Made by a program: the position numbers and the translations under genes. Positions 40,550 through 64,000 of a stretch of 64,000 bases of DNA are shown in pieces. The notes beneath the pieces are model-generated. The model did no database searches. It was not told the DNA's origin and saw nothing but the letters and a program-made list of their open reading frames with translations. Position 1 is the stretch's first letter; each line of letters starts with the position of its first letter. The stretch is from Polyangiaceae bacterium (lineage in GTDB: Bacteria > Myxococcota_A > Polyangia > Polyangiales > Polyangiaceae), in the NCBI GenBank assembly GCA_025353725.1, contig JANXOF010000082.1:1-64000 (forward strand), written 5' to 3'.

Positions 40550-40569
40550 GACCGTCCTTGCCGACTGCA

Positions 40570-46864: not shown

Positions 46865-47281
46865 CTAGCCGTCGTCTTCCGTGAAAGCACCTGCGATCCA
46901 TTCGATGGTGAGCGCGCCGGAGACGTCACGCGTGACAGCGGCAACGTCGATGCGAACGCGCTTCACGTCGGTACGCGTGGCGAGCCGACCGCGCCAAAGT
47001 GCGCGGACGCCCCTTAATACGGTTCGGCGCTTTGTGAGAGAAATACTCGCGAGCGGCTTATCGAAAGACCGCGGACCGCGCGCGCGCACTTCCACGACGA
47101 CAACGAGTCCTTCTTTAAAGGCCACGATGTCGAGCTCCAAAGAGCCTATACGAAGGTTACGCCAGAGGATCTGGAAGCCATTTGCAAGAAGGCGGTCTGC
47201 TGCAGCATCTTCGGCATCCCGACCGAGCTGATGACGGCGCGGGAGAGGCTGAGACGCCAAGCGCACCCGTTTGCTAGTCAC
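46865..47281 (-). CDS. yraN: UPF0102/YraN-family nuclease-like protein
   Basis: 138 residues from GTG 47281. HQLGRDAEDAAADRLLANGFQILWRN is followed by LELDIVAFKEGLVVVVEVRAR, which is the E-(x)n-D-(x)n-ExK-like core of the restriction-endonuclease-like fold of YraN; here the ExK position reads VEVRAR, i.e. Lys is replaced by Arg. The family is nearly universal and poorly understood, possibly linked to recombination or DNA uptake. Its start overlaps the stop of the upstream lipoprotein gene by 8 bases. Confidence 0.82.
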   Translation of the reverse strand: MTSKRVRLASQPLPRRHQLGRDAEDAAADRLLANGFQILWRNLRIGSLELDIVAFKEGLVVVVEVRARGPRSFDKPLASISLTKRRTVLRGVRALWRGRLATRTDVKRVRIDVAAVTRDVSGALTIEWIAGAFTEDDG

Positions 47282-47912: not shown

Positions 47913-48165
47913 CGTAGCTGAGAACGGTAGACGTTTGGTGCGTGGAGCGTCAAGCATGTAGTCACCCATGGCCGGTTCGCGGGAGATCCGTCGGGCCTCT
48001 GCGACCTCGTTTCGCGCGCCGCTTTCCGGGTCATCGTCGTGGCGCTCGGCGCGCGCGAGTCGAGTCTCTCGATTCATCCGCGAGCCACCCACCGGAGCGG
48101 AATTTTCGTGCATCTGGCACTCAGTCAGCGACGGCGTGGACTCCCTCTCCGCTTCCGCAATCGCC

Positions 48166-48195
48166 TTGACAAGCGCGAATTCCACTCCGTACCAT
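48166..48195 (+). promoter_or_regulatory. candidate sigma70 promoter of the gliding-type operon
   Basis: A perfect TTGACA at 48166-48171 and TACCAT at 48190-48195 (4 of 6 matches), spaced 18 bases. Transcription would start near 48202 and leave a leader of about 190 bases, which includes the hairpin at 48265. Confidence 0.4.
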
Positions 48196-48390: not shown

Positions 48391-50187
48391 ATGCGTCACA
48401 CGATCGTTCGAAGCTGTCTGCGAAAACTCCTCGTCGTCATCGGTCCAGGATCGTGCCTCCTGGCGCTCGCGACGATGAGCACCGAAGCCTCTGCGCAGCG
48501 CCTCAAGCCAAAGCCGCCTACCGCCCGGCCCGCGCCAAAGCCTCCCGCAAAGCAAGGAAAACCCGCCGCGGGCGGTGACGCCATTGAACTCGACGACGCC
48601 GCGGTCCCTCCCACAGGTCCGGGCGCGGCCAAGCCGGTGGAGAATGGACCTCCGCCGGTCGCAGGACAGATGACCGAGCAGGCTGCGCAGGCGAAGCGCC
48701 TGTTCGATGGTGAGAAGTGGGGTGATGCGTCGCTTGCCCTGTACCGCGTGTACAAAGGTGAGACAGGCGACGATGAGGGGAACAAGCAGCTAAGCCAGTA
48801 CCACTTAGCGATCTCGCTCTATCGCTTGAAATTCTACCAAGCGGCCTATGGACTCTTTTCTGAAATTGCCGACAAGCCGAACCATCTGAAGTTTAATGAG
48901 ACGTTGCTCTGGCTCGCGAAGCTCGCAACCGACCTTCCCGAGCCTGCCGATATCGTCGAGCGAGTTGGCAAGTACAACGACGCGGCCATCGAGAAGTTTA
49001 ATAACCAGAACCAGCGCGAATTGTACTGGCAGCTGAACTATCTGCTCGGTCGTTACAAGTATCGCAACCGGCAATACGAGGACGCCCTCCGCCTGTTCAC
49101 GAAGGTCGACAGGCAGTCGAAGTACTACGTCAAGGGCCAGTTTTTCTCGGGCATCAGCAACGTTCAGGTTCGCAAGAGCGTTCCGGCGGTGCAGTCGTTT
49201 CAGCGCATTATTGGCGCCATTGACGAGGGGATCGAGGGGCTCGACGACGAAGACCGCATGAGAGACCTTGCGTTTCTTTCGATGGCGCGGACGTACTACT
49301 CGGCCTCGGTTCGCGTCGACGAGAACAACAAGCCTACGATCGACAGTTCAAAGCTCAGCGCGGCGGTAAAATACTGGAACAAGGTCGATGTCGGAAGCGA
49401 GTACTGGCTCGACGCGCTTTTCGAGGAGTCGTGGGCATACTTCATGGCGGGCGACTATGCGCACGCGCTCGGGAACGTCCACACGATTCAGTCGCCTTAC
49501 TTTCCCGACTCGTACTACCCGGAGGGCGATATCCTCAAGGGAGTCATCTACTTCGCGAACTGCCAGTACGACGACGCTGAGATTGTCGTCGCCAAGTTCC
49601 AGTCGAAGTACCAGCCGCTCTACGATGACCTCAATAAGGTCCTCACGCGGTTCAAGGGAGACGAAGCGGACGAACCCTTTTACAAGTTCTTGAAGGACGT
49701 TCGCGACGATAAAGCCGACCTTCCGCCCCGCACGAAGATCGTTGTGCACAACGCGCTCTCGGACCGCCAGCTCCTTCGCCATCTTTCTTACGTTCAAATT
49801 TTGGATGATGAAGGCAAGCGATTCGGTAAAGCTCCGGTCACATTCCGTGAGTCGCCTCTCGGAAACGATGTTAAGGACTCGCTGCAACTGGCTCGCGACA
49901 TCGCCGTCCGGAACGCGGGGCAGCTCGCTCGCGAGCGCTATCAGCGGAACCTTGACGAGCTGAATGAGCATCTCCGCGACAGCGCGAAAATTCGAATCGA
50001 TATCAATGCGGCGAAGCGAAACCAGCTTGATGCGGCGATCGCGGGCTCTCAGCTGACGTCGCAAGAGTCGGAGCGGAACATCGTTAGGCCTGACGAAGAA
50101 CACGTGGTTTGGCCGTTCGACGGCGAATACTGGCGTGACGAGCTTGGGTTCTATCGACAGACCATCACCTCGAAGTGTGGGAGATAG
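48391..50187 (+). CDS. GltC-like exported TPR protein (gliding-motility type)
   Basis: 598 residues from ATG 48391; the GAGGAAA upstream fits as ribosome site. Signal peptide LVVIGPGSCLLALATMSTEASA, then a Pro/Lys/Ala-rich low-complexity stretch to about residue 95, then TPR-like helical repeats (QYHLAISLYRLKFYQAAYGLFSE in part, ELYWQLNYLLGRYKYRNRQYED in part, YAHALGNVHTIQSPYFPDSYY), ending with a charged helical region. Size, export and place directly before the AgmU-like gene match GltC of the Myxococcus gliding machine, a periplasmic TPR protein. The name is inference from size and order; the repeat content is what I can see. Seven bases to the next start. Confidence 0.68.
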   Translation: MRHTIVRSCLRKLLVVIGPGSCLLALATMSTEASAQRLKPKPPTARPAPKPPAKQGKPAAGGDAIELDDAAVPPTGPGAAKPVENGPPPVAGQMTEQAAQAKRLFDGEKWGDASLALYRVYKGETGDDEGNKQLSQYHLAISLYRLKFYQAAYGLFSEIADKPNHLKFNETLLWLAKLATDLPEPADIVERVGKYNDAAIEKFNNQNQRELYWQLNYLLGRYKYRNRQYEDALRLFTKVDRQSKYYVKGQFFSGISNVQVRKSVPAVQSFQRIIGAIDEGIEGLDDEDRMRDLAFLSMARTYYSASVRVDENNKPTIDSSKLSAAVKYWNKVDVGSEYWLDALFEESWAYFMAGDYAHALGNVHTIQSPYFPDSYYPEGDILKGVIYFANCQYDDAEIVVAKFQSKYQPLYDDLNKVLTRFKGDEADEPFYKFLKDVRDDKADLPPRTKIVVHNALSDRQLLRHLSYVQILDDEGKRFGKAPVTFRESPLGNDVKDSLQLARDIAVRNAGQLARERYQRNLDELNEHLRDSAKIRIDINAAKRNQLDAAIAGSQLTSQESERNIVRPDEEHVVWPFDGEYWRDELGFYRQTITSKCGR

Positions 50188-50194
50188 GTTTCGT

Positions 50195-53100
50195 ATGAAG
50201 CGTGTTCTTCAAGTTGCGGTTTTCGGTACCTTAGTGGCTGGTGCGGTACCGTCAGCTCGTGCCGCGGACGTGTGTATCGATGAAAAGGCGAAAGCCTCAC
50301 TGAATGCGTGTGGCGGCAACGGCCCTAAAGAGTTCGACGTCGGCAAACACGGCAAGAACCCGCAAGTAAACTTCCACTCGGCCCCGCCTCCCGCGGACCT
50401 AAAGAAGCGGGACCAGCAGACGAAGCCCAGTGCGCCGAGTCTTTTGGACGCTCCGCGCGATGAGCGGAAAAGTCGGCTTCAAGCGCGCCAGCGCGCCCTC
50501 CTTATTACGGAGATCTCTGGTCTCGAAAGTCTTTTCGCGACGACCAGGAAGAACGCCCCCGACCGCCCTCAGCTCGGGAGGCGACTTGCGGAGGCCTACG
50601 TCGAAATGGAGGCCGCAGCGTTCCGCGACAAGACCGAAGCCGAAATCAAGCGCGACGGGTTCAAAAAGTCGAATCCTCAAGCCGCGGGTCAACAGCAGAC
50701 CTACGCGAACGACGCCGAAAAGGTGATGAAGCTCGCTCGCAAAAAGGCGATCGAGAACTACACGCTTATTGTTGCGGATTATCCGACGTACGCATCACTC
50801 GATGAGGTTCTTTATTACCTCGCGTACGAATACGAGCAGGCGAGCGACCTCAAGAACGCGCGTTCTGTCTATTACGACCTCATTAAGAAGCGTCCGGATT
50901 CAAAATACATCCCGAACGCGTATCTAGCATTTGGCGAATTGTTTTTCAACGAGGCGCAGGGCGACCCGTCGAAGTGGGAGAACGCGCTTCAGGCTTACGA
51001 AGAGGTCATCAAGTATCCGCCGCCGAACAATAAGGTGTTCGGATACGCGTGGTATAAGCTGGCGTACGTCTTCTGGAACACGGGGCAACTCGACAAGTCG
51101 CTCAATGCATTCAAAAAGACCATTGATTTTGGGGTTGTTCATACACAGCTTCCGGGAGCAGGCAAGCTCGCTGAAAGCGCTCGCCGTGATGTCATCCCCG
51201 TCTACGCACTCAAAGGCGACCCTGCGCAGGCGTACAACTTCTTGCACAACATTTCGGGCGACCAACAAGGGTCGAACGAGCGGACGTACAAGATGATGGA
51301 CGACCTCGGGAATAACTATCTCGACACCGGGCACTACCCGGAGGCGATTCAGCTCTATCGAGACCTCATCGGCAGAGACAAGTCCGGTCGCCATTGCGTC
51401 TACCAGGCGCACATCACCGAAGCGACAATGGCGCTCAAGTCGGGAAACAAAGACGCTATCGTCAAGGAGGTCGACAGCCAGGTTAAAATCGCCCTGGAGT
51501 TCAAGACGAGCTCGTATTCTCCCGAGCTGAAACAAGAGTGCGCGAATAAGAGCGCCGCGCTCGCCACAGAAACTGCGATGGCGTGGCACCTTGAGGCAGT
51601 GGGCTCCGGAGGCCAGCGAGGTACGGGCGACCTGAAGACGATGAGCGCGGCAGCGACGCTCTACAAGAAGGTCGTCGATACTTTCAATGCCCAGGAATTC
51701 GCGACTTTCTCCTTCCCCCGTGTTGTGAAGGAGGACTGGCCGAATATCTATAAAATCAAGTACGCGATGGCCGACCTTCTGTACTTCCAAAAAGATTGGG
51801 CGAAGTGCGGGCCTGCGTTCGACTCCGTAGTGGCGGAAGGACCGACCGCGCCCGAAGCGCCGGAAGCGGCGTACGCGTCCGTCCTGTGCTACCAAAATAT
51901 CTACGAAGAGACACACAAGGGGGGCGCCGACCGAAAGGGGGCAGGCAATCTGCCCGGGTCAGGGAAGGCTCAGTCGGCTGCCGCGCAGCGTGCAGCGGAA
52001 TCGGAGAAGCTGAGGCCCAAAGATATGACCGACAACCAAAAAGGAATGGTGTCGGCCTTCAATCGTTATATTTGCTACATAAATCCACCGAAGAGCGATA
52101 CGGCCGGTCAAGAGCAATTGGTCGAGGTGAAGTACGCGCGAGCGCGCACCTACTTCGAGTCACAGCATTGGGAAGAAGCCGCGATAGGCTTTCGTGATAT
52201 CGCGCTCAATAATGCAGACAGAGATGTAGGCGTTTACGCGTCGCAACTTTATCTCGAGAGCGTCAACGTGCTCGGCTCTCATTTTTCCAAGACGACGTGT
52301 TTTGATGACATGGAGCAGGACGTACCTAAGTTCGTTGAGCTCTACTGCCAGGGTGAAAAGGCCGCCAAGAACGCCGACGCCTGCACCAGCCTGAATAAGA
52401 TTCAGGTCGACATTCTGAGGCTCAAGGCTCAAAAGTCAGTGGAACGCGCGGACAAAGAAGGAGGACGTGACGCGATTAGCCTGTACGAAAAGGGCGGAAC
52501 CGCGTACTTCGAGATGTTTCGACGCTACTGTCAAGATCCCGTAGGAAACGGCCAGCCTCCGCAAGCCGAAAAGTGCGATGAGATAGCGTACAACGCCGCG
52601 CGCTCGTTCCAGGCCGCACGCCTCGTGGCGAAAGCTATCACTGTGCGCCGTTCGCTCATTGCCTACGATGAGAAGCTAAAGCTCAACTCGCCGCTTGCGA
52701 AAAAGGCCACCTTCGAGATCGCTGGTAACTACCAGGCTATCGCTGTCTACGATCTCGCGGCAGACTGGTTCGAGCGCTACGCGAAGAATGATCCAAAGGC
52801 GCCCGAAGCAGACAAAGCTCTGTCTGACGCCGTCATCCTTCGCCTCGGCCTCGGTCAGGAAGACCAGGCCATTGATGATGCGCGCACGTTCACGAAAAAC
52901 TACGGTGGTGCAAAGCCTGCACAAACGGCTTCGGTAGCGTTTGCGGTGGGGGCTCACTACGCGGAGCAGGGTCAGTGGGACAAGGCCAAGGGCGCGCTTT
53001 CTGGATCGATGGGGATTATCGATAAGGCTGGACCTGACATTCAGGTTCAAGCGCGAGCGACGCTTGGGCGAGTGTACCTCCAAGGCGGCAAGGGGGCAGG

Positions 53101-53989
53101 TGAGGCTCAGGCGCGAGGGGAGTACGCCAAAGTACGTGCGCTATGGTCGGACCCCGTGCGCGCCGAGGCAGCGATTCGTGCCGCCTATCCGAGTGAGGAT
53201 GACGCTTCTAAGGACCGTCGCCTTGCGAAGGCTTTGAATGCCGTGGGCGAGGCCTACTTTTTTGCAGCAGAAGAGCGGCGAAAAGCGGAAGTTGAGACCA
53301 TCAAGTTTCCGGCCTACTCGGGGCCTGGAGACAAGGCGACGGTCACGAATCACATCCGCACGAAGGTCAAGGATTGGTACGAAAAGAAGCGCGCGGCGAT
53401 AGAAAAGGTTGGGCCGGAATACGTCAAAATCCTAGACCTTAAGCCGAAGTCGCCGCCGAAGTGGAAAATCGCGGCCGGATCCCGTGCCGGGATGATGTGG
53501 GGCGATCTTGTAGACGACTTCAGGCGTGCGCCCATTCCTACAGCTTGGAAATCCGACCCGGAGCTTCGCGGCGTCTACTACGATAGTCTCGATGCTGCCT
53601 CTGAGCCGTTCAAAGTGCGTAACGCCAAGCCTGCGTTGAAGGCGTGTCTCGACCTATCTGTGCAGAATCAATACTTCGACGAATATTCGCGGACCTGCGA
53701 GGTGTGGCTCGCGAAGAATTACAAATCTGAATACCATATTGTCGACGAACTGCGCGGTGCGCCTTCGCTCTCGAATAGCGGTCTGGACGAGAAAGCGCCT
53801 CCGGTTTTGACCGATGGTACGTTTTGGCACCCGCCGGCGGCGACGCCGGAAAAAACCACCGTTTCAACGACCGAAGAAGGTGGCGGCGCCGCGGCACCTA
53901 AAGCCGTCGCTGGCGGTGGGTCAAAAGGTTTGGCGAGGCCGACTGGCGCGGTTCGGCCGCTTCCGGGCGCGACCGGCAGGAAGAAGTGA
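50195..53989 (+). CDS. AgmU/GltD-like giant periplasmic TPR protein
   Basis: 1264 residues from ATG 50195. Signal peptide VLQVAVFGTLVAGAVPSARA, then a region with two Cys (DVCIDEK, NACGGNG) and dozens of TPR-like helices through most of the length: VLYYLAYEYEQASDLKNARS, AYKLAYVFWNTGQLDKSLNAF-type text, NYLDTGHYPEAIQLYRDLIG, AGNYQAIAVYDLAADWFERY, and a final low-complexity Ala/Gly/Pro tail. AgmU (GltD) of Myxococcus xanthus is an about 1200-residue periplasmic TPR protein moving with the gliding machine, so size and layout fit. It overlaps the next gene's region closely (stop 53989) and is the core of the operon. Confidence 0.75.
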   Translation: MKRVLQVAVFGTLVAGAVPSARAADVCIDEKAKASLNACGGNGPKEFDVGKHGKNPQVNFHSAPPPADLKKRDQQTKPSAPSLLDAPRDERKSRLQARQRALLITEISGLESLFATTRKNAPDRPQLGRRLAEAYVEMEAAAFRDKTEAEIKRDGFKKSNPQAAGQQQTYANDAEKVMKLARKKAIENYTLIVADYPTYASLDEVLYYLAYEYEQASDLKNARSVYYDLIKKRPDSKYIPNAYLAFGELFFNEAQGDPSKWENALQAYEEVIKYPPPNNKVFGYAWYKLAYVFWNTGQLDKSLNAFKKTIDFGVVHTQLPGAGKLAESARRDVIPVYALKGDPAQAYNFLHNISGDQQGSNERTYKMMDDLGNNYLDTGHYPEAIQLYRDLIGRDKSGRHCVYQAHITEATMALKSGNKDAIVKEVDSQVKIALEFKTSSYSPELKQECANKSAALATETAMAWHLEAVGSGGQRGTGDLKTMSAAATLYKKVVDTFNAQEFATFSFPRVVKEDWPNIYKIKYAMADLLYFQKDWAKCGPAFDSVVAEGPTAPEAPEAAYASVLCYQNIYEETHKGGADRKGAGNLPGSGKAQSAAAQRAAESEKLRPKDMTDNQKGMVSAFNRYICYINPPKSDTAGQEQLVEVKYARARTYFESQHWEEAAIGFRDIALNNADRDVGVYASQLYLESVNVLGSHFSKTTCFDDMEQDVPKFVELYCQGEKAAKNADACTSLNKIQVDILRLKAQKSVERADKEGGRDAISLYEKGGTAYFEMFRRYCQDPVGNGQPPQAEKCDEIAYNAARSFQAARLVAKAITVRRSLIAYDEKLKLNSPLAKKATFEIAGNYQAIAVYDLAADWFERYAKNDPKAPEADKALSDAVILRLGLGQEDQAIDDARTFTKNYGGAKPAQTASVAFAVGAHYAEQGQWDKAKGALSGSMGIIDKAGPDIQVQARATLGRVYLQGGKGAGEAQARGEYAKVRALWSDPVRAEAAIRAAYPSEDDASKDRRLAKALNAVGEAYFFAAEERRKAEVETIKFPAYSGPGDKATVTNHIRTKVKDWYEKKRAAIEKVGPEYVKILDLKPKSPPKWKIAAGSRAGMMWGDLVDDFRRAPIPTAWKSDPELRGVYYDSLDAASEPFKVRNAKPALKACLDLSVQNQYFDEYSRTCEVWLAKNYKSEYHIVDELRGAPSLSNSGLDEKAPPVLTDGTFWHPPAATPEKTTVSTTEEGGGAAAPKAVAGGGSKGLARPTGAVRPLPGATGRKK

Positions 53990-53997
53990 GGCGGACT

Positions 53998-55416
53998 ATG
54001 TCGTTTCTGCGTATCCGTTCGAGAAATCTTGGCGTCGGCATCCTGCTGGGAGCCCTTGTCGGTTGCGGTGGTGGCGGGGGATCTTCAGAAGGTCCGAAGG
54101 CGCCGGGGAAGGGCACCGCCTCTGCACCAGTGCCCGAGGACGTATCCAAAGATGCGCAGGCGAAGTTCAACGCGGCCGTCGATTCGTTCGTCGAGCACGA
54201 CAAGGCTAACGACTGGAGTGACGCCAATTGTGCTGGCGTTGCCAAGCTCTTCGAGGACGCGGCGGCTGAGCAGAAGGGGAGGTTTGCTCAAGCAACCTTT
54301 AATGCCGGGCTTGCCTTTCAGCGCTGCAACGATGACGCTAAGGCGCGGGCAAAGTTCGAGCAAGCGTTGCGAGAGGACCCTAAGTTTCATCATGCGAGAG
54401 CGCAGCTCGCGCTCTACCAATTCAAGGCTGACTCGAACGAAGACGCGGCCATTGGTGCGATGCAGCAGGCCGTGACTGACGCGCAGTTCCAAAATGTTCC
54501 TGCGCTCGTCAACCTGGCGATGTTCCAGATGATGCGCGACAGCGCAGCCGGCCAGCAGGACTGCAAGGACGACATGGAGTGTGCAAAGAAGAACCTTCAG
54601 CGTGCACTCGCGATCGACGACGCTTTCATGTCCGCCTTCAATCAGCTGGCTCTCTACTACTTCCAGCTCGCGAAGAAGCGGGCGGGTGTCGTCAAGTCGA
54701 GTGCAAAGGGTTCCCGTGGGCGTCAGGTCGTTACCCATGCCTCGGTCGGGAAGAAGGCCGACCAGCAGCAGCTCGAGCTCGCAGCGCTCGTCTGTTCCCA
54801 AGCTATCCGCAAGAATGCGAACTACGCGCCGATTCACAACACCGCGGGGCTGATTCAAAACGAGCTAGGTCAGGTCAACGGCGCGGTGGGCGAGTTTGCC
54901 ACTGCCGCGAAGCTCGACCCGAAGTTCTTTGAGGCCCAAATGAATTTCGCGGCCGTCAATCTTGGCTTTCGCGGGTTTGAGCAGGCGCAGGCCGCCTACA
55001 CGAGAGCGCTCGCCATGCGCCCGAACGACTACGACGCACATCTCGGTATGGCACTCGCGCTGAGGGGGCCGATTACGGGTACTGAGCCCGACTACGACCA
55101 ACGCGTCCTCGCTGTTCAAGGCGAGCTCGACGCCGCGAAGAAGCTTGATCCCAATCGGCCGGATGCCTTCTACAATGAGGGTATTTTAACGCAGGAGTTC
55201 AAAGCCAAAGGGTCACTCGACAAGGAGAAGCAGAAGGGGTTGCTTCGGCAGTCGCAGCAGATCTTTCAGCAATTCATCGACAAGGCGAGTGGAAAGCCCG
55301 AATACGATGGAGCTGTAAAACGCTCGCGTGAGCGGATTGAGGACATCGACGGCACCCTAAAGTTTATGGACCTCGGTGCAGATGACCAAAAGTCCGCTGA
55401 GCCTGCCAAGAAGTAA
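53998..55416 (+). CDS. AglT/GltE-like TPR lipoprotein (gliding-motility type)
   Basis: 472 residues from ATG 53998, preceded by GAGGCGG. A GTG at 53986, overlapping the upstream stop, is the alternative. Signal peptide ends at the lipobox ALVGC followed by a Gly-rich run. TPR repeats fill the rest: FAQATFNAGLAFQRCNDDAKA, EDPKFHHARAQLALYQFKAD, FMSAFNQLALYYFQLAKKRA, YAPIHNTAGLIQNELGQVNGA, FFEAQMNFAAVNLGFRGFEQ, RPDAFYNEGILTQEF. AglT/GltE is an outer-membrane TPR lipoprotein of the gliding complex; the assignment follows from lipobox, size and position after the AgmU-like gene. Confidence 0.75.
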   Translation: MSFLRIRSRNLGVGILLGALVGCGGGGGSSEGPKAPGKGTASAPVPEDVSKDAQAKFNAAVDSFVEHDKANDWSDANCAGVAKLFEDAAAEQKGRFAQATFNAGLAFQRCNDDAKARAKFEQALREDPKFHHARAQLALYQFKADSNEDAAIGAMQQAVTDAQFQNVPALVNLAMFQMMRDSAAGQQDCKDDMECAKKNLQRALAIDDAFMSAFNQLALYYFQLAKKRAGVVKSSAKGSRGRQVVTHASVGKKADQQQLELAALVCSQAIRKNANYAPIHNTAGLIQNELGQVNGAVGEFATAAKLDPKFFEAQMNFAAVNLGFRGFEQAQAAYTRALAMRPNDYDAHLGMALALRGPITGTEPDYDQRVLAVQGELDAAKKLDPNRPDAFYNEGILTQEFKAKGSLDKEKQKGLLRQSQQIFQQFIDKASGKPEYDGAVKRSRERIEDIDGTLKFMDLGADDQKSAEPAKK

Positions 55417-55536
55417 AAGTTTTCCGGAACCTTCGCGTTCTGAACGCTGTCGGGATGGTTGAACGGGATGCGGTGCTGCTCGTCGAGGCGGTTCCCTCCA
55501 ACACAGTCGGAAGCATCACGAATGACGGAGAGAGAC

Positions 55537-55845
55537 ATGAAAGCCACTCGAGTTTGCGGAGTAGTTGCGGCCCTGCTTGTTTTCGCCTCGAGCGCGTCCG
55601 CATTTGCTCAGGCCCCGGCAGGAGGAGCGGCGCCCGGCGGTGGTAGTCCGAAGGCCTCGGCGAACGTTAGTGGTGGCAAAGATGACAGTTACGGCTACGA
55701 ATTCTCGGATGACCCTCTCGCGGCCGGTGGGTTCGGCCCAAACGACGCGACGATCCGCGTGCGCCCGGGACCTGTACGGCAAACGCTCATTCGACCGCGC
55801 ACTTCGTTCGTGCCTGAGATGTTGAAATCCGTCGAAAACCTCTGA
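55537..55845 (+). CDS. small exported protein of the gliding-type operon
   Basis: 102 residues from ATG 55537, with a good GGAGAGAG ribosome site. Signal peptide VVAALLVFASSASAFA is followed by a Gly/Ala/Ser-rich stretch, an acidic segment (KDDSYGYEFSDDPLAAGG) and a conserved-looking basic end (RVRPGPVRQTLIRPR, FVPEMLKSVENL). No domain is recognised. The gene is nested between the AglT/GltE-like and the PglI/GltG-like genes with the same direction, so it is very likely part of the same machine. The C-terminal 'RQTLIRPR..FVPEMLKSVE' would be the part to compare across genomes. Confidence 0.72.
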   Translation: MKATRVCGVVAALLVFASSASAFAQAPAGGAAPGGGSPKASANVSGGKDDSYGYEFSDDPLAAGGFGPNDATIRVRPGPVRQTLIRPRTSFVPEMLKSVENL

Positions 55846-55901
55846 GTCGTTCCTGTTTCGTTTCGATTCGCGCTCATTCGCGCTGAAGAAAAGGTCCGAC
55901 G

Positions 55902-58178
55902 ATGGAAGCCAAAGCCAAAGTTCAACTGACGTTCGCCCTCTATCAGGGTGAACAGCTTGTGAGGCGTGAAACTATCGCGCAGGACATCGTCAAGGTCGGT
56001 AAAGACCCGCGAAGTCACCTTCGCGTGGATGACGACCTCGCGTCGCGCATGCACGCAGTTATCGAGGTCGCGGGCCCGACCGACATCACGCTCATCGATC
56101 TCGGCAATGAGCCCGGGACCGTAGTGAACGGGCAGCGTGTCAATAAGTGCAAGATTCGACCCGGCGACCAGATTCAAATTGGTTCGACGATGATTCAGTT
56201 GGAAGCCGCCGACCTGGCGGGTGGAACAGCGTCGGATTTCGCTGCAGCTGGAGCCGCAGGAACGGCTCGAGCCATTCCGACCTCGCAGGCGCCACCAACA
56301 ATCGCGGATACGCCCGTGGATGGCCTTCCGCCACCCGTGCCGACAGCGACGCGCGCAGGGCAGGGAGCAGGCACTGCGCTCGGCGGCTTCGGGCCTGGTC
56401 AGCTTTCGTCTGCTGGTGCTAATCCGTTCGCAGCAGTGGGGCCTGCGAGTCGTCCGCCGCCCGCGCCAACGGCAAATCCTTTTGCCCCTGCGGTTTCGCC
56501 AAGCAAGCCGCCCCCGCCAGCGGCAGGCAATCCATTCGCAAGTGGGTCGCAGTTCGGTAGCGGTGCTTCCGCTGCGCTGAATCACCCGTTCACACCGGCC
56601 AACCCGTTTGCGGCATCGGCCGTGGAGCAGGGATACGGATACGGCATCAACGCGCCGGGGGGGTCAGACTTTGACCCGAGTCAGCCTTTTACCTACGCGA
56701 TGGTTAAGAGTGGGCCTGACGTTCATCCAGATGAGGTGGAAGGTGCGGCTGCGGCTGTTGAGGTGCTGGTTAAGTGGGACCAAAACACTCTTCACGTCTC
56801 GCACGAGAGCCCACCGAAAAGCTTTTATGTGGGCGAGGAGAACGTCGGCTGCGACTACTTCGTTCCTAGCGAGGTGTTGGGCACCACGCGCGCGCCTATT
56901 GTCGTAGCCCGCGGCGTCAGTGCAGCATTTGTCATTCTTCCCCGTTCGTCGGGTAGCGTCGAGGTTCCAGGTCAAGGGACGTTTACATTTGCAGACTTGA
57001 TACAATCCGGGCGCGCGCGTCCTTCGTCAGAGATGAGCGGAGCACACGAGTTTGAGCTGCCTCCGAACGCGAAGGCTCGCATGGAGCTTGACGGCTCGGG
57101 TCTTGTTTTCGAGGTTAGCGCTGTAAACGCTGGGAAAGCGCCCCCCGTAGGTGCCTTTTCTAGTTTCGAGCCTGCTGCTTATCTGTTTATCGGGCTCTCG
57201 TTTTTGCTCCACATAGGCATTGTCGCTTCGATGGCGTTCTTCATGCCGAGCATGAATGGCGATGACTCCGAAGCGATCGACCGAGACCAGCTCCTGCTCA
57301 TGCAGAAGATGTTAAACGCGGCTGCGGAGCGGGAGCTGGAGGAGAAAAAGTCGGAAGAGGTAGCCGACAGTAACGCCGACCAGAAAGAGGGCGGCAGCGG
57401 CACTCGCGCAAAGGGGGAGGAGGGGTCAATGGGTAACCCGAACACGAGCGCGACGAACAAGCGCTACGGCGTCCAAGGGCCGAAAGACAACCCTGACCCT
57501 CATCTTGCGCGCACCGCCGCATTGAAAGAGGCCCAAGAATTCGGCATGATCGGACTTATCAACGTGGGAGCTGGGGGCGATCCAAATGCGCCGACTGCCC
57601 CGTGGGGCCGTGAGGAATCGAGCGGGAATGACCCGCTTTCTGCTCGCGGAAATATGTGGGGAGATGCGATAGGCGACGCGTTCGGTGCTGGTGGTTTAGG
57701 CCTATCCGGCGTCGGTGAAGGTGGCGGCGGTCGCGGTGAAGGCATTGGCCTTGGCAACATTGGCACGCTCGGCCACGGTGCTGGCACCGGTACCGGCCAA
57801 GGGTTCGGAAGCGGACATGGTCGCCTTGGAGGCGCGCACCAAACGAAAACGCCTTCACTTCGTCAAGGTGCCACTCAAGTCAACGGTCGCTTACCGGCCG
57901 AGGTTATCCAGCGTATCGTGCGCCAAAACTTTGGACGCTTTCGCCTTTGTTATGAGAACGGTCTCCGGACGAATCCAAACCTCCAAGGTCGAGTTTCCGT
58001 GAAGTTCGTCATTGATCGCTCCGGCGCCGTCTCGACAGCTTCGGACGCTGGCTCGGACCTTCCCGATCAGGGGGTCGTCGGCTGCGTGGTTCGCGGCTAC
58101 GGCAACCTGTCGTTTCCGCAGCCTGAGGGGGGGATCGTGACGGTTGTTTATCCCATTACGTTCAATCCGGGCGATTGA
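55902..58178 (+). CDS. PglI/GltG-like FHA - membrane - AgmX/PglI C-terminal protein
   Basis: 758 residues. Residues ~20-98 form an FHA domain (VKVGKDPRSHLRVDDDLASR with the Arg/Ser/His phosphothreonine-binding positions, then VNGQRVNKCKIRPGDQI). A Pro/Ala/Gly-rich linker (~110-265) contains four NPFA motifs. A second beta-rich cytoplasmic region with FYVGEEN and a further FHA-like fold follows. One membrane helix lies at ~426-448 (AAYLFIGLSFLLHIGIVASM). After a Gly-rich periplasmic stretch, the TonB-like AgmX/PglI tail ends the protein (IVRQNFGRFRLCYENGLR, VKFVIDRSGAVS, CVVRGYGNLSFPQPEGG). The layout is that of GltG/PglI, which links cytoplasmic parts to the outer envelope. First FHA helix and TM assignments are by eye. 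Confidence 0.83.
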   Translation: MEAKAKVQLTFALYQGEQLVRRETIAQDIVKVGKDPRSHLRVDDDLASRMHAVIEVAGPTDITLIDLGNEPGTVVNGQRVNKCKIRPGDQIQIGSTMIQLEAADLAGGTASDFAAAGAAGTARAIPTSQAPPTIADTPVDGLPPPVPTATRAGQGAGTALGGFGPGQLSSAGANPFAAVGPASRPPPAPTANPFAPAVSPSKPPPPAAGNPFASGSQFGSGASAALNHPFTPANPFAASAVEQGYGYGINAPGGSDFDPSQPFTYAMVKSGPDVHPDEVEGAAAAVEVLVKWDQNTLHVSHESPPKSFYVGEENVGCDYFVPSEVLGTTRAPIVVARGVSAAFVILPRSSGSVEVPGQGTFTFADLIQSGRARPSSEMSGAHEFELPPNAKARMELDGSGLVFEVSAVNAGKAPPVGAFSSFEPAAYLFIGLSFLLHIGIVASMAFFMPSMNGDDSEAIDRDQLLLMQKMLNAAAERELEEKKSEEVADSNADQKEGGSGTRAKGEEGSMGNPNTSATNKRYGVQGPKDNPDPHLARTAALKEAQEFGMIGLINVGAGGDPNAPTAPWGREESSGNDPLSARGNMWGDAIGDAFGAGGLGLSGVGEGGGGRGEGIGLGNIGTLGHGAGTGTGQGFGSGHGRLGGAHQTKTPSLRQGATQVNGRLPAEVIQRIVRQNFGRFRLCYENGLRTNPNLQGRVSVKFVIDRSGAVSTASDAGSDLPDQGVVGCVVRGYGNLSFPQPEGGIVTVVYPITFNPGD

Positions 58179-58243
58179 TTCGACGGCGGGGCTCGCTCGA
58201 AGCCCTCATTGGGATTCCTCGCAAAGGTTTGACGTCGGCTCTG

Positions 58244-58266
58244 GTGAGCGTGATTAAAACGCTCAC
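58244..58266. repeat. inverted repeat after the PglI-like gene
   Basis: GTGAGCG and CGCTCAC, 7-base perfect arms, flank the AT-rich TGATTAAAA (9 bases). It lies 66 bases past the gene stop. It may be an operator for the next gene or a weak terminator; no T-run follows. Confidence 0.5.
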
Positions 58267-58399
58267 TGTAGAGTCTAGGAGGGGGTAGTCCACAGTCTGT
58301 GTGCCGAACTCGTGAGGATATGCGCGAGAAGCGTCTAACTTACATGAGGGGTTTGAGTGCCGACTCGTCGCGAAGTCGGCGACGAAAGTGAACCGTCGA

Positions 58400-58417
58400 T
58401 GGACAATAGTCTGTCCA
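58400..58417. repeat. inverted repeat before the esterase gene
   Basis: TGGACA and TGTCCA separated by ATAGTC, ending 33 bases before the esterase ATG (58450). A related half-match (TCCACAGTCTGTG) lies near 58290. Together they suggest a repressor site, but this is only a pattern. Confidence 0.4.
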
Positions 58418-58449
58418 CCGGGCTGTCGACCTCCTAAAACACCGGCTTG

Positions 58450-59439
58450 ATGTACAAGAGTCGATTAGTGTCTGCTTTAGCGCGCGCGGTCGTGCTGATG
58501 CCTTTCATGTCTCTGACCCAGTCCGCCTGCTCGAGCAACGGTTCGACGGCTGACGAACTTGCTACCCTGCCCGCGCCTGAGATGAATGACTCCCACGTCG
58601 GGCAAGCTGCCAACGGCGCGGGAACCAAGCCATCCGGTGCTTCGACCGACGTAGCCTCCGCGGATGGCGGCCCTGGTGTTGCTCTTGGAGCGGACGGCGG
58701 CACCAAGCCTCCTTCCCCATCGCGCGAGCCGAAGCCCGTCGAGCCAAACGCCGGCGCGGGTCCGAAGCCAGTCGGAACGTGCGCCGTGGTGAAGGACCGC
58801 GCGGGTTTTTTCTCACGCGTTTCAGCCAAAAGCTCTTACGTGGCCTACGTGCCGAAAGGCTACGATGGTAGCTCCCCCGTGCGCTTGATCGTTGGCCTTC
58901 ACGGATGTGGAGATACGGCAGCTAATTTTGCGACATGGGGAATTAACCCGTTTGCGACACGTGCCTCACAGGACCACATTGGAATTTCCATTGGTGGCCA
59001 AGATGGTAACTGCTGGAGTCTTGGCGTTGACGACGACAAGGTTCTTGCCGCCGTTGATGACGTCGCGAGCTGCTTTTGGATCCACCGGAAGAAAATATCG
59101 ATCGCCGGATTTTCGAGCGGCGGAGGACTTGCCTATCGCGTTGGTCTCCAGCACGCGGGCCGCTTCGCATCGATTTTAATCGAGGATTCGGGGTTGTACG
59201 CGTCGGACAACAACCCGGATGCTTTGCTCGCGAATGCGTCATGGAAGGTCCACGTGGCTCACCGGGCTCACACGAGTGACACTGTTTTCCCTCTCGAAAA
59301 AATTAAACGCGACTGGGAAAAAACCGCGGCGGCCGGCTTCCCCATCGTCACGAGCGTGACGGCTGGCGGGCACGATGGAACTAGCGATGATTGGGCGAAT
59401 TGGCTCATTCCGCAGTCCGCGACGTGGATGGCACCGTAG
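58450..59439 (+). CDS. exported esterase/PHB-depolymerase-like lipoprotein
   Basis: 329 residues from ATG 58450. A signal peptide ends at a lipobox-like SLTQSAC, then an ~85-residue Pro/Gly/Ala/Asp-rich linker, then a compact alpha/beta hydrolase: RLIVGLHGCGDTAANF, CFWIHRKKISIAGFSSGGGLAYR with nucleophile Ser in GFSSGGG, the Asp/His ends in HVAHRAHTSDTVFP and TAGGHDGTSDDW. This fits polyhydroxybutyrate depolymerase / feruloyl esterase-type enzymes that act on polymers or plant esters outside the cell. It is inserted between gliding-type genes with its own upstream palindromes and a terminator, so it is probably separately regulated. Confidence 0.78.
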   Translation: MYKSRLVSALARAVVLMPFMSLTQSACSSNGSTADELATLPAPEMNDSHVGQAANGAGTKPSGASTDVASADGGPGVALGADGGTKPPSPSREPKPVEPNAGAGPKPVGTCAVVKDRAGFFSRVSAKSSYVAYVPKGYDGSSPVRLIVGLHGCGDTAANFATWGINPFATRASQDHIGISIGGQDGNCWSLGVDDDKVLAAVDDVASCFWIHRKKISIAGFSSGGGLAYRVGLQHAGRFASILIEDSGLYASDNNPDALLANASWKVHVAHRAHTSDTVFPLEKIKRDWEKTAAAGFPIVTSVTAGGHDGTSDDWANWLIPQSATWMAP

Positions 59440-59445
59440 GGAAAC

Positions 59446-59482
59446 GCCCCTCGCGGGTCCGCTCGCGCCGGCGAGGGGTTTT
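59446..59482 (+). terminator. intrinsic terminator after the esterase gene
   Basis: CCCCTCGC (59447-59454) pairs exactly with GCGAGGGG (59471-59478) around a 16-base GC-rich loop and is followed by TTTT, seven bases after the stop. Confidence 0.8.
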
Positions 59483-59524
59483 CCTCTTTGCCATGATGCT
59501 TCGTTCCCATAGACTCGCCATGCG

Positions 59525-60496
59525 ATGAACAGGATGCTCAAGTCCCTTGTGCTGGTAACTGCCTTGAATAGCGTGGCAGTGGTTGTGACTGCGGGCTGTA
59601 GCCGCAACAACATCGAAGCGGTAAACCTCGCAAACGAAGGCGACAAGGCTAAGGGAACGGACGTAGACAGCGCCATCTCGAAGTACGAACAGGCGACAAA
59701 TCTCGACCCGACGAGCCACCGGATTCTTTGGAAGCTTGGCCTCGCTTACGCGAAGAAGGAACAGTGGGATAAGGTCGCGACGACGATGGCGAAGGCCGAA
59801 AAGCTCGAACCAAATCACGCAAATTTCTCTTACCTTCGCGGGATGGCCCTGGCGAGGCAGGCCGTAAAAGGACCGACTGGATGGGCGGACGCAAAGGCCC
59901 CTCTCGAGGAATCGTTGAGGCTTGACCCGAACGGACCCGACTACCCGACGGGGGCGGGCTGGGATGCGAAAAATGCGGGGTCAACCCATTTCGAGCTCGC
60001 AGAGGTCCTTTACCATCTCGATGACGAAAAGGGGGCGCTCATCGAGTACACGAAGGCCGTGCAAGCGAAGCCGGACGAGCTCTCCTTCTACGGCCCGCTT
60101 GCAGCTCTTTATATCGATTTGACCCTTCTGAACGAAGCGGAAGAGGTCCTGACTCAGGGGGTTATCTTCGGTAAAGATGGCGACAAGTCGCTTTTCAATG
60201 TCCACAGCTTACTTGGGCAGGTTGCAGACATGAAAGGAGACTTGGGGAAAGCGGCTACCGAATACGAGCTTGCCAAGAAAGCATGCGGTCTCTGCAACGA
60301 GGCCGGCCAGCAAATTGCCTTCTTTAACCTTGGCGCAGCTCTCGCAAGTCTCAAGCCCCCGAAGAAGAGCGAGGCGATGGCGCAGCTTCAATCCTTCCAA
60401 AAGATGATCTGCAAGGGCGCGGCGGCGACGCGGTATGCAGACCAGTGTACCACCGCTCAGCAGCTCGCCTCGAAGCTCGGCGGGACGCTTCAGTAG
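59525..60496 (+). CDS. TPR lipoprotein near the gliding-type locus
   Basis: 323 residues from ATG 59525. Signal peptide LVLVTALNSVAVVVTAGC with the lipobox Cys at about residue 25. TPR units follow: AISKYEQATNLDPTSHRILW, LGLAYAKKEQWDKVATTMAK, FELAEVLYHLDDEKGALIEY, YGPLAALYIDLTLLNEAEEV, VADMKGDLGKAATEYELAKK, FNLGAALASLKPPKKSEAMA. The C-terminal part has Cys pairs (CGLCNEAG, ICKGAAATRYADQC) that may form disulfides. It could correspond to a GltK/GltE-like outer-membrane lipoprotein of the machinery, but several TPR lipoproteins exist in these genomes and the match is only by type and position. Confidence 0.72.
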   Translation: MNRMLKSLVLVTALNSVAVVVTAGCSRNNIEAVNLANEGDKAKGTDVDSAISKYEQATNLDPTSHRILWKLGLAYAKKEQWDKVATTMAKAEKLEPNHANFSYLRGMALARQAVKGPTGWADAKAPLEESLRLDPNGPDYPTGAGWDAKNAGSTHFELAEVLYHLDDEKGALIEYTKAVQAKPDELSFYGPLAALYIDLTLLNEAEEVLTQGVIFGKDGDKSLFNVHSLLGQVADMKGDLGKAATEYELAKKACGLCNEAGQQIAFFNLGAALASLKPPKKSEAMAQLQSFQKMICKGAAATRYADQCTTAQQLASKLGGTLQ

Positions 60497-60670
60497 GATG
60501 TTTGCTCGCGGAACGGCTAGAGCCGTTTCGCCTCGATTTATTGAGCCGTTCACCGAAGCGCGCTCGATGTTGGGTTCCGGATCGGAGCATGCTTGCACAA
60601 GCGCCCGCTTGCTCTGTTAGCCTGGCCCTTCGCTGTTGATGTTGCCGGTTTGCGATAACCGAGGGAATCC

Positions 60671-63600
60671 ATGGACCTGCAGGATCGACTGAAGCACCTT
60701 GAAAATGTTCGCGACTGGCAAGGGCTGGTCGAGGAGCTCGAGAAGGGGATTCAATCCCAGGAAGCGCACGGCAACGAAGCCAAAGCGGGCTTCCATCTGC
60801 GCCTCGGGCAGATTCTCGAGCAGAAATTCTTGGCTGGTGTGAAAGCGCTCAAACACTTTCAAGACGCCTATAAGCTCAATCCGGCCCTCGCTTCGAGCCT
60901 CGAAGCTGCGCGCGCGGTGTACTGGGCACTCGGCAAGCTCAACATGGTCCAAAAGCTTCTCGAACTCGAGTTGCGGACTCACAAGGAGGGGCCGCACGCG
61001 ACACTTCTTCTGATTGAGCTCGGCGATGTTCTTTGCGATCTTGGAGACTACGACAAGGCGACGAGTACCTACGCGCGGGCGCTTGCGACGAGTGGGGGCG
61101 CAAGCGCAGAAGCTCGAGCCTGTCTGGAGGACGTGCAAGCGGAGAGTGGCTCGTGGCAGTCCCATGTCGGCCAATTGGTCGAGAACGCCCGTAACGTATC
61201 GGACGACGCCGCAGCGCGAAGTCGTTTTTTACTTCGAGCAGCTCGTATTACACGCCGGTTTGCACCCAATGAACTGCCTGCGATGCTCGAGAAAGCTTAT
61301 GCGGCGGATCCGTCGTCGAAACAAGCGGCGGCCCTCTACGAAGGTTCGATGTCCGAGGCTGGCCAATTTGAGGCGCTCGACCAGGTTCAGTCTCGTATCC
61401 TTCAAAACGAGGTGGATCGAAAGCTGCGCGCTAAGCTAGCGCACATCTTCGGAACGCGTTGGGTGTCGCGCCACCAAAACGTCGATATGGGCACGAAGTT
61501 TCTCGAAGAGTCGATCAAACTCGACCCCGACAATGAAGGGGCTTTCAATTATCTACGTGACACGTACGGTCGCAAAGGAGGCGATTGGGATCGCGTGCTT
61601 ACGATTGCCGAAGAGGCGGTCACGCAATCTTCTGAGGATGCTAACGCGACGTTCATGCTCGCGCAGGCCGGAACGATTGCCTGGCGGCAACTCGGCAACC
61701 TAATACGTGCGAGAACCGTCTTCGCGCGCCTAAGCCAGGTCGCCCCGTCGCACCCGCAGCTACTGGCGTTCGAAGCGCAAATCGGCGAGCAGCTCTCCAA
61801 CATGCCGCCTCCGATTACGGGGCTCCCGCCCTTAACAGGGCTTCCGCCGCTCGGGAGCATCGCACCGGTGGTGATCCTCAAGACGGCTCCACCGCCGCAC
61901 GGCCACGAGACCAGGGATACCGCTCCGCCTCCTGGGGATTTCGACCTCGCACGTCGAGCTTCAGTCGACATCGTGGAGGAGCAAGCAACGACGGCGCCTC
62001 CCGAGTTGTTCGACGGGCCACCTTCTGGCGGCGTGGTTATACTGACTTCCGTGCGCGTGGACGCAGCCGATGCAGGCTCTGAATCGCTCGATCGTGCCAC
62101 GGCTGTCCCTGTTTCTGCGTCAGGTTCTGGCTCTCTGGCACCGTCTGCTGGCGCGTCTCCGGTGGACGGTGGGCTCTCCGATCCCGCGAAGATCGGAGAG
62201 CTGCGGGCGCTTGCCGATAAGCAAGAAGCAAACAAGCGTTACAACGAGTACGTCAAAACGCTTCTTCAGCTTGCAGCCTTGGTTCCCGACCCGGTTGAGA
62301 AAGTTGCGCTCTACACGAAAGCGGCGGAGCTCTATACGGGTAAGTTCGCGAACCAGGCAGAAGCGGTAAAAGCTTACGAAGCCGTAGTCGGGATTGATCC
62401 CGTCAACAGCGGCGCCATCGATTATCTCCGCAGCATGTACGAGAAACGTCGAGACTGGGAGAAGCTCCTGGGACTCGAGCGGCGTGAAGCCGAGCGACTC
62501 GAGGGGGATGCGCGCGCGCGCAAGTTCCTCGACATCGCGAAGCTCGCGACCGAGCGCGTGAAAAAGCCAGACGTTTGCATCGAGCTTTGGCACGAAGTCC
62601 TGAATACCGACCCCGTAAATTCAGAGGCACTCGGTGCGCTCGGAGGCCTCTACGAACGGTCGAAAGACTTCGATAAACTCGTCGAAGTGCTCGAAAAGCA
62701 GGCTGACGTTACGGATGATAGTGCCATTAAGGTTCAGATCCTGACGAAGCTCGGCACGATCTACGGCGATCGTTTGAGTAATGATGAGGGCGCCGTGAAC
62801 GCGTGGCGAGCTCTCCTCGCCATCGATCCGAGCGATCGCAAGGCCCAGGAAGCTCTAAAGAAGAAGTACCTCGCTCTTGGTCGGTGGAACGATCTCGAGG
62901 GGTTCTACGCCGAGACTGGGAAGTGGGACGAGTTCATTCGCGTGCTCGAGCAGCAGGAAACGAAGGAGACCCAGACTGCGGCCAAGATCGGACTGCTCTT
63001 CAAAATTGCCGAGCTTTGGTCTGAAAAGAAGCAGAAAAACGATCGCGCTGCCCGCGCCTACGAAAAGCTGCTGGAGTTGGAGCCGCAAAATCTGCGCGCC
63101 GCCGAAGCGCTTATTCCTATTTACACGGAGGCGGGGAACCAAAAAGCGCTTGCCAACGCGATTGAGGTCAAACTCGCTCACGAGGAGGACGCGTTTGCCA
63201 AGCTCGCGCTCCTCCGTGAGGTTGCGGCGCTCTACGAGGGGAAAGTTCGCGACCCTCAAAAGGCGTTTGCGCGCTACCTATCGGCCTTTGCTCTCTTTCC
63301 GTCGGACGAGCAAGCGACCGCGGACGCCGAGCGCGCCGCGAAGGCCGCCAGCGCGTGGGTACTTATCGAGGAAGCTTATCGCAAGGCGATTGAAGAAGCT
63401 GTGGAGGTTCGTGATGCTTCGCTCGCCATCACGCTCCGCCTCAAGTTAGGACGCGTCCTTGTCGAAGAGGGGCCCTCTGAAGTTCGGGTCGACGAGGCAC
63501 TCTCGGTTTACCGCGCCGTCTACGACGCTGACAGTGAGAATGCCGATGCCCTCGCCGCACTCGAACGGCTTTACCGCGCAACCGCGCGATTTTCGGACCT

Positions 63601-64000
63601 GCTCGGCGTTTACGAAAAGCGAAGGCAGCTTTCGCCTGACCCTGCTGAGCAGCGACAGATTAGCTATGAAATAGCGAATCTTTACGAGACCGAGTTGAGG
63701 GATCTCGACCGGGCCATCGACACCTATAACGGGGTGCTCGAGACGGAGCCCATCGATGTCCGCGCGCTCGCAGCCTTGGATGTGCTCTACAGGCAGTTGG
63801 AGCGTTGGGAGCCGTACGTCGACACGTTGCGTCGCCGTATCGAGCTCGACGCTACGGAGGCGGAGCTTATCGACCTCAAGTTTCGCTTGGGGCAAACGCT
63901 TGAGCATCACACCGGCGATGCTCCCGCAGCCCTCGAAAATTATCGCGAGATTCTTTTCCTCGACGCTTCGCACGCCGGGGCACGGGAGGCTCTTGAAGCG
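60671..64000 (+). CDS. AgmK/GltI-like very large cytoplasmic TPR protein (partial, continues past right edge)
   Basis: The frame opens at ATG 60671 with GAGGGAA six bases before it and has no stop to base 64000, giving at least 1110 residues. There is no signal peptide, so it is cytoplasmic. TPR-type repeats fill it: LKHLENVRDWQGLVEELEK, HLRLGQILEQKFLAGVKALK, LIELGDVLCDLGDYDKATST, FLEESIKLDPDNEGAFNYLR, AYEAVVGIDPVNSGAIDYLR, ELWHEVLNTDPVNSEALGAL. Residues ~377-500 are a Pro/Ala/Ser/Gly-rich break (ITGLPPLTGLPPL) between two TPR blocks; the second block has ~35-residue spacing with a 'Y..V/L..DP.N..A...L...Y' signature. Myxococcus AgmK/GltI is a very long TPR protein of the gliding complex, so the fit is reasonable. 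Full length is unknown. Confidence 0.75.
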   Translation, partial: MDLQDRLKHLENVRDWQGLVEELEKGIQSQEAHGNEAKAGFHLRLGQILEQKFLAGVKALKHFQDAYKLNPALASSLEAARAVYWALGKLNMVQKLLELELRTHKEGPHATLLLIELGDVLCDLGDYDKATSTYARALATSGGASAEARACLEDVQAESGSWQSHVGQLVENARNVSDDAAARSRFLLRAARITRRFAPNELPAMLEKAYAADPSSKQAAALYEGSMSEAGQFEALDQVQSRILQNEVDRKLRAKLAHIFGTRWVSRHQNVDMGTKFLEESIKLDPDNEGAFNYLRDTYGRKGGDWDRVLTIAEEAVTQSSEDANATFMLAQAGTIAWRQLGNLIRARTVFARLSQVAPSHPQLLAFEAQIGEQLSNMPPPITGLPPLTGLPPLGSIAPVVILKTAPPPHGHETRDTAPPPGDFDLARRASVDIVEEQATTAPPELFDGPPSGGVVILTSVRVDAADAGSESLDRATAVPVSASGSGSLAPSAGASPVDGGLSDPAKIGELRALADKQEANKRYNEYVKTLLQLAALVPDPVEKVALYTKAAELYTGKFANQAEAVKAYEAVVGIDPVNSGAIDYLRSMYEKRRDWEKLLGLERREAERLEGDARARKFLDIAKLATERVKKPDVCIELWHEVLNTDPVNSEALGALGGLYERSKDFDKLVEVLEKQADVTDDSAIKVQILTKLGTIYGDRLSNDEGAVNAWRALLAIDPSDRKAQEALKKKYLALGRWNDLEGFYAETGKWDEFIRVLEQQETKETQTAAKIGLLFKIAELWSEKKQKNDRAARAYEKLLELEPQNLRAAEALIPIYTEAGNQKALANAIEVKLAHEEDAFAKLALLREVAALYEGKVRDPQKAFARYLSAFALFPSDEQATADAERAAKAASAWVLIEEAYRKAIEEAVEVRDASLAITLRLKLGRVLVEEGPSEVRVDEALSVYRAVYDADSENADALAALERLYRATARFSDLLGVYEKRRQLSPDPAEQRQISYEIANLYETELRDLDRAIDTYNGVLETEPIDVRALAALDVLYRQLERWEPYVDTLRRRIELDATEAELIDLKFRLGQTLEHHTGDAPAALENYREILFLDASHAGAREALEA

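Follow-up and report, generated by a model that had tools for sequence, protein, structure and literature searches.

Does the run of genes at the right-hand end of the stretch analysed here encode a gliding machine? The stretch, called the window below, comprises 64,000 nucleotides of Polyangiaceae bacterium DNA (assembly GCA_025353725.1, contig JANXOF010000082.1, positions 1 to 64,000, forward strand). A first-pass annotation, made from the letters alone, had noticed five plus-strand genes from position 48391 onwards that resembled Glt parts of the Agl-Glt gliding machinery of Myxococcus xanthus. We find that all five are in that place and are homologues of Glt proteins, and we put the probability at roughly 0.72 that the locus is the organism's set of Glt gliding-transducer genes, related by descent to the G1 and G2 clusters of M. 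xanthus and retained within a single region of some 33 kb (39647 to position 72346 of the contig); the figures behind the alternatives weighed below overlap in part with this one. The sequence shows that the region encodes homologues of GltA, B, C, D, E, F, G and I and that other contigs of the genome encode an AglRQS motor of the M1 type, a protein like GltJ, and a probable MglB next to a small GTPase. G, C and L numbers are our handles for genomes, contigs and fetched stretches; the genome of the window is G000 and its contig is C9.

The GltC-like protein matches NF033756 with 305 bits over residues 54-619 of 621, and near its C-terminus it has a GEYW-DELG motif that is invariant in all 10 of the aligned GltC sequences. 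The GltG-like protein matches NF033760 with 282 bits over residues 7-756 of 758, with an FHA domain at residues 30-94 (52 bits) and an AgmX/PglI tail at 666-755 (NF033768, 82 bits). Both scores are far beyond chance, and for these two proteins the Glt models outscore every other model by far. They also top the scores of the paralogues scored in the same genome, 85 bits for a GltC on contig C50 and 75, 109, and 147 bits for GltG proteins on C50, C90, and C92. The GltD-like protein matches Anaeromyxobacter GltD with E 7e-44, and its placement with Glt comes also from the tree. GltD and GltE give generic TPR matches as well, as would be expected if these were unrelated TPR and FHA genes that merely resemble Glt parts. 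We regard that explanation as already refuted: the specific matches of GltC, GltG, and the TIGR04565 barrels described below rule it out, and two further points also speak against it, a CglF match in a slot homologue and a gltC-gltD order that recurs across the phylum. The first-pass annotation had itself named better matches to generic TPR families, or a lack of other gliding components nearby, as grounds for giving it up; GltC and GltG are best matched by Glt models, and more gliding parts are found beside these genes and on other contigs.

The genes of the region, with the evidence for each, are the following.

39647..40573, minus strand: gltA-like, outer-membrane beta-barrel with 8 strands predicted; start codon uncertain.
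40570..41574, minus strand: gltB-like, outer-membrane beta-barrel (TIGR04565 and M. xanthus GltB match).
47274..48185, minus strand: cysteine-rich lipoprotein, divergent from gltC, at about the place of GltK/CglC; the true start is probably an ATG about 90 codons into the frame.
ATG 48391 to stop 50187, plus strand: gltC-like exported TPR protein (NF033756, motif, N-terminal hydrophobic segment).
ATG 50195 to stop 53989, plus strand: gltD-like (AgmU) TPR protein, signal peptide by eye (BLAST and tree).
ATG 53998 to stop 55416, plus strand: gltE-like (AglT) TPR lipoprotein, lipobox LVGC (NF033758, lipobox, position between gltD and gltF/gltG).
55537..55845, plus strand: gltF-like (CglF) small exported protein (weak NF033764 match, slot homologue in G037).
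55902..58178, plus strand: gltG-like (PglI), with FHA, one hydrophobic segment near residue 428, and AgmX/PglI tail (NF033760, NF033768, FHA).
58447..59439, plus strand: esterase-like gene (polyhydroxyalkanoate-depolymerase-type match, 51 bits).
59525..60496, plus strand: TPR lipoprotein between gltG and gltI (same-slot relatives in 12 other loci).
60671..64000, continuing to 72346 on C9, plus strand: gltI-like (AgmK) giant TPR gene (size, place, C-terminus).

With these starts for gltD and gltE, the very short gaps reported at first pass are right: 7 bases separate gltC from gltD (50188-50194) and 8 bases separate gltD from gltE (53990-53997). Beyond gltE, the spacing is wider. Some 7 kb upstream of gltC, the opposite strand carries the gltB-gltA pair. 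This pair, the GltF-like gene, the TPR lipoprotein, and the cysteine-rich lipoprotein had all been overlooked. A scan for hydrophobic segments found an N-terminal segment on GltA, GltC, and GltF and one strong segment in GltG, and none within the first 1109 residues of GltI. The starts of GltB and GltD are signal-peptide-like by eye only, the scan having found no segment there at its threshold. The esterase-like gene is probably not a part of the machine; it appears to be an insertion into the glt run. In its place, no gene is called in G102, and G036 has a frame of similar size (L060 25-1038).

Against TIGR04565, the gltB-like outer-membrane protein scores 96 bits (above the cut-off of 60) and the gltA-like protein scores 57 bits, 3 bits below it; as a control, M. 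xanthus GltB and GltA score 118 and 170 bits. The whole genome has only three matches to this model: the pair itself and a gene upstream of the paralogous cluster on C50. When the two M. xanthus proteins are compared, the gltB-like gene is nearer to GltB (E 1.2e-24) and the gltA-like gene is nearer to GltA (E 1.7e-8). The order, gltB then gltA, is identical to that in M. xanthus, and if gltA starts at its GTG, the two genes overlap by 4 bases, as they do in M. xanthus (L114, 933-1829 and 1826-2596). The predicted structure of the GltA-like protein, with a mean predicted local distance difference test score of 73, shows the 8 strands and is closest, among PDB entries, to the OprF and OmpA barrels. 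The GltF-like protein gives only a weak match to NF033764 (16.6 bits, E 0.006); it matches a protein in the same slot of G037 by BLAST with E 2e-9, and that protein scores 89.5 bits against this CglF model, whose cut-off is 90. We take CglF to be an alternative name of GltF. The cysteine-rich lipoprotein has a homologue in G102 (E 2.5e-48) and similar sequences in G089 and G036. Its profile link to the M. xanthus-type lipoprotein (GltK/CglC) is 28 percent when direct; by way of an intermediate group, it is 93 percent at either step. With its place, this is at most suggestive of a relationship to CglC.

Where is the motor? The first-pass annotation did not see AglRQS or the GltJ partner, and neither is among the identified genes of the window; relatives of both are found on other contigs. 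There are 6 MotA/TolQ/ExbB genes in the genome. Two of them lie back to back on C35, each with two ExbD-type genes (Pfam MotA_ExbB, ExbD). The plus-strand set is an AglRQS motor of the M1 type: its AglR shares 53 percent identity with M. xanthus AglR over 189 residues, and the best matches of AglQ and AglS are the M1 partners. The M. xanthus AglR and AglQ frames used, 245 and 162 residues, have the lengths given in Table 1 of Luciano et al. (2011). For the minus-strand set, the match is to the second motor of M. xanthus, called M2 here. The GltJ-like protein is encoded on C64, outside the cluster, and has a 94-bit match to NF033761 with Zn_ribbon_4, GYF_2, and the tail. On C97, a Roadblock protein (Robl_LC7, 70 bits) adjoins a small GTPase of 198 residues (Pfam Arf, 22.9 bits; cut-off 22.3). 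A search of the GTPase for MglA gave no NCBIfam model match at E 1e-10; judged by their sequences, the two proteins are probably MglB and MglA.

The motor genes adjoin mreB, mreC, mreD, mrdA, and rodA, although the mreD score is below its cut-off and the stretch ends within the mreC frame, so that only a fragment of it was scored. The order there (G000:C35:55498-67105; L203 5498-7000, L041 1-10105) is mreB, mreC, mreD, mrdA, rodA, then the divergent M2-type (minus) and M1-type (plus) sets. In G036, of the same genus, mreB and mreC are followed by unassigned genes and then by motor genes of the M1 type; the stretch (L198) shows no M2 set. The stretches fetched from G102 and G022 (L199, L200) show the divergent motor pair, and no mre gene was noticed within them. 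The linkage of mre and motor genes may be meaningful, since MreB is known to work with this motor (PMC9389320).

Is a single glt region peculiar to this bacterium? Relatives of GltC are found in 114 of 140 genomes of the phylum (E 0.001) and relatives of GltD in 111 of the 140 (E 1e-10). The C-terminal domain of GltI, which occurs in other proteins too, is found in 72 (E 1e-5). In 103 of the 106 genomes for which the best places of both GltC and GltD are listed, gltC is directly upstream of gltD; the count leaves out 8 of the 114 genomes with GltC. The three exceptions have the two best places on different contigs. For two of them, a second listed place brings the genes together: GltD on C25 in G001, and a GltC piece on C17 in G067. 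In G068, the best places stay on different contigs. The GltI domain and GltD could be compared in 70 of the 72 genomes with the domain, 2 being left out. They share a contig in 37, and in all 37 the domain is 10-30 kb downstream on the same strand; they are on different contigs in the other 33, in G001 because its best GltD is in a second cluster. The one-region arrangement thus looks usual in the phylum, and given how regularly gltD directly follows gltC, their separation in M. xanthus is the exception. This agrees with the earlier suggestion that the window has perhaps kept an ancestral arrangement.

The statement that the parts are spread over several clusters in M. xanthus is also borne out, by the genome and by Luciano et al. 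(2011): gltC is with gltB-gltA in L114, and gltG, gltI, and gltJ are on another contig. The genes of the window do lie together as a set, as had been claimed, but the idea of a one-locus set is not new. Luciano et al. (2011) described a core of seven genes (GltC, D, E, G and AglRQS) in one region in non-Deltaproteobacteria and Geobacter, and G1 and G2 clusters grouped in four Anaeromyxobacter. The locus is therefore a well-supported further case of an arrangement partly described in 2011, and by itself it does not change that picture. Among the matches listed in the open-licence literature, we found no newer survey of Glt gene order or of the agl-mre link beyond the papers cited here.

What, then, is new in this locus? 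Between gltG and gltI it has a conserved TPR lipoprotein, in the slot that gltH takes in the Glt stretches of M. xanthus, Archangium, and Anaeromyxobacter. Relatives of the lipoprotein occupy the same slot in 12 other loci. Compared with one another at E 1e-3, each of the 13 proteins matches between 10 and all 12 of the rest, and a lax pattern finds a lipobox in 12 of them; the 12 loci were picked by eye for having the frame, so that these figures show conservation, not frequency. In the Glt stretches of M. xanthus, Archangium, and Anaeromyxobacter, the profile of the lipoprotein finds only GltE, GltI, GltC, and other TPR frames. By tblastn, GltH relatives are present in 7 stretches from Myxococcia, both Glt and Nfs, and are found neither in the window nor in 17 other stretches, barring a C90 protein that matches itself. 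A GltH profile run on 11 whole genomes finds it in M. xanthus (2 places), in A. oryzae (1 place), and weakly in G001 (1 place, 51 bits, not on the contig of the main cluster), and not in the genome of the window or the 7 others. G001 has both the lipoprotein in the gltG-gltI slot and a GltH relative elsewhere, and so the two are not mutually exclusive within one genome. That relative (G001:C48:3-765) follows a fragment of a GltG-type tail, with the tail at 3-89 and the weak GltH relative at 205-765; this may be a second gltG-gltH pair on a broken contig. It is possible that the slot lipoprotein is an unrecognised working Glt part in most Myxococcota and that the M. xanthus machine is the derived one, with GltH put in and genes scattered, although we propose this only tentatively and would sooner doubt than adopt it.

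The giant TPR gene, the end of which the first-pass annotation expected in the sequence to the right of position 64000, is completed there and encodes 3891 residues (60671-72346). Its C-terminal 491 residues are 25 percent identical to M. xanthus GltI over 510 columns (E 6e-24).

Several observations weigh against reading the locus as a Glt gliding set. None of the equivalog-type Glt scores (GltC, E, F, G, J) reaches its NCBI cut-off (450 bits for GltC, 225 for GltE, 90 for GltF, 650 for GltG, and 450 for GltJ). Thus, the proteins are related to the Myxococcus parts without being close copies of them, and function cannot be transferred by the models alone. The GltE-like protein scores 63 bits against NF033758, and paralogues in the same genome score 74 and 76. 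By profile alone, GltE is not separable from other TPR lipoproteins; its identity rests mostly on position. We dropped its model score as independent evidence because it is no higher than those of the paralogues. Furthermore, 6 matches in the genome, also in other proteins, show that the C-terminal domain is not confined to GltI, and this lowers our confidence. GltH has no match anywhere in the genome at E 0.01, with the profile that finds the M. xanthus and A. oryzae proteins. We do not take GltH as defining, because Luciano et al. (2011) treat it as recent (GltH and GltK are perhaps later acquisitions) and omit it from their list for potential gliders.

The remaining points of this kind concern Nfs. 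Could the locus encode an Nfs-type machine, with the same envelope parts and the same AglRQS motor, that moves surface polysaccharide for spore coat or capsule assembly? The nfsA-H genes lie in a single region in the order of the glt genes (PMC3858216), as in L195; this stretch, like L187 and L194, was assigned to M. xanthus Nfs by which genes it has and how they are arranged, gene tags playing no part. In M. xanthus, Glt and Nfs alike have GltH relatives, which raises the possibility that the window predates the Nfs/Glt split; this sharing suggests that Nfs split from Glt within their lineage, and if Nfs was born there, the window is co-orthologous to both. The trees speak against such an origin (p 0.020 and 0.003, below). 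In addition, PMC3858216 describes Nfs as having NfsH and lacking GltI, GltJ, and GltK, whereas the genome of the window has no H relative and the window has a GltI-like gene.

In BLAST, the window GltC scores 196-208 bits with Glt of Myxococcia and 112-139 with Nfs; GltD scores 142-165 and 95-124 (within Myxococcia, with no M. xanthus GltD included); and GltG barely differs, 86-92 and 82-84. Single-gene trees of C, D, and G leave the deep forks open. In the tree of the three concatenated proteins, the window groups with its relatives in the phylum. Approximately unbiased tests on this alignment reject a group of the window group with Nfs (p 0.010) and one of Glt, including G001, with Nfs (p 0.020). 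In the first concatenated tree, the branch joining Glt and the window had a support of only 63/93, and the three long paralogues did not form one outgroup. A mixture-model tree with one outgroup separates Glt and the window from Nfs with a support of 96/97, and it rejects a group of the two Glt rows with Nfs (p 0.003). The Nfs branch is long and may have been drawn outwards, which would mislead the trees. We consider an Nfs-type machine quite unlikely. That the cluster is Glt we hold firmly; that it is Glt rather than descended from the common ancestor of Glt and Nfs, only loosely.

How would a Glt machine made from these parts work? From work on M. xanthus, the inner-membrane AglRQS motor would draw on the proton motive force. 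AglR and GltG are interaction partners there, and at focal adhesions the motor and the Glt proteins together build a machine that spans the envelope (PMC3169522). GltG, with a cytosolic FHA domain, one transmembrane segment, and a periplasmic TonB-like tail, would with GltJ pass force across the periplasm to GltD, GltE, and GltF. In M. xanthus, GltA, GltB, and GltC interact, and GltA and GltB are in the outer membrane (PMC4488436); a GltC-GltA-GltB subcomplex would provide the link to the outer membrane here. The giant GltI may be a scaffold on the cytoplasmic side, and MglA would switch the machine on. The outcome would be gliding, and we infer that the organism likely glides.

A Glt-like complex of this kind might instead move another cargo along the cell in a bacterium that does not glide, as proposed for a basal transport machine. 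Core complexes occur in bacteria not known to glide (Luciano et al. 2011, PMC3858216), and core machines have been considered as possible transport devices (PMC3858216). The missing GltH and the scores below the equivalog cut-offs fit this explanation. However, the genome has more than the seven-gene core. Luciano et al. (2011) gave AglRQS together with GltD, E, F, G, C, A, and B as the mark of a potential glider, and the GltA, GltB, and GltF relatives complete this set; GltI-, GltJ-, and MglB-like genes are also present. We consider a dedicated transport machine rather unlikely, and a Glt gliding set remains our preferred reading. It places a nearly full set of gliding genes in a lineage far from Myxococcus and shows the usual gene order of the phylum. 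Parts A-G, I, and the motor look old and H looks recent. The locus is compact enough to be deleted or moved, and the role of the lipoprotein in the GltH slot is directly testable.

The genome has further Glt-like clusters. A second core cluster (G000:C50:66001-76207; L047 1-10207) encodes GltC-, GltD-, GltE-, and GltG-like proteins of 679, 1139, 383, and 469 residues, with a TIGR04565 barrel upstream. A third (G000:C90:94499-103822; L049 9499-18822) has GltD-, GltE-, and GltG-like genes with small exported proteins between them, and its GltG-like protein groups in the tree with those of M. xanthus C186 and Anaeromyxobacter L192. On C92, a GltG paralogue with no recognised FHA domain (G000:C92:71580-73433; L046 8580-10433) groups with the GltG of the window family. 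The whole genome has 59 FHA-domain matches, a high number.

How does the locus compare with known systems? Like the M. xanthus Agl-Glt system (G1, G2, M1), this genome has relatives of GltA, B, C, D, E, F, G, I, and J and of AglRQS, the gltB/gltA overlap, and probably also MglB and MglA. Unlike M. xanthus, gltC joins gltD-G and gltI in one run, with gltB-gltA upstream on the other strand; there is no gltH, the TPR lipoprotein is in its slot, and the gltJ-like gene is on another contig. Anaeromyxobacter (A. oryzae, L190-L191) also has gltB, A, C, D, F, G, and I relatives in one region, where gltE is not called; it has gltH after gltG and a gltJ-like gene after gltI, and the window has neither in those places. 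Nfs shares with the window the single region and the paralogous A-G parts, and differs from it in its H, I, J, and K complement and in the trees. A metagenome-assembled genome, M_MaxBin.025 (Deltaproteobacteria; L093, G001), has the same order, gltA-gltC-gltD-gltE-gltG-TPR lipoprotein-gltI. It differs in having gltA directly before gltC, a vWA lipoprotein before gltA, and the N-terminal part of gltJ after gltI. There (G001:C25; L086 5118-20000, L087 1-13131), the run from the vWA lipoprotein, which is MIDAS-adhesin-like (51 bits), to the gltJ part occupies about 27 kb.

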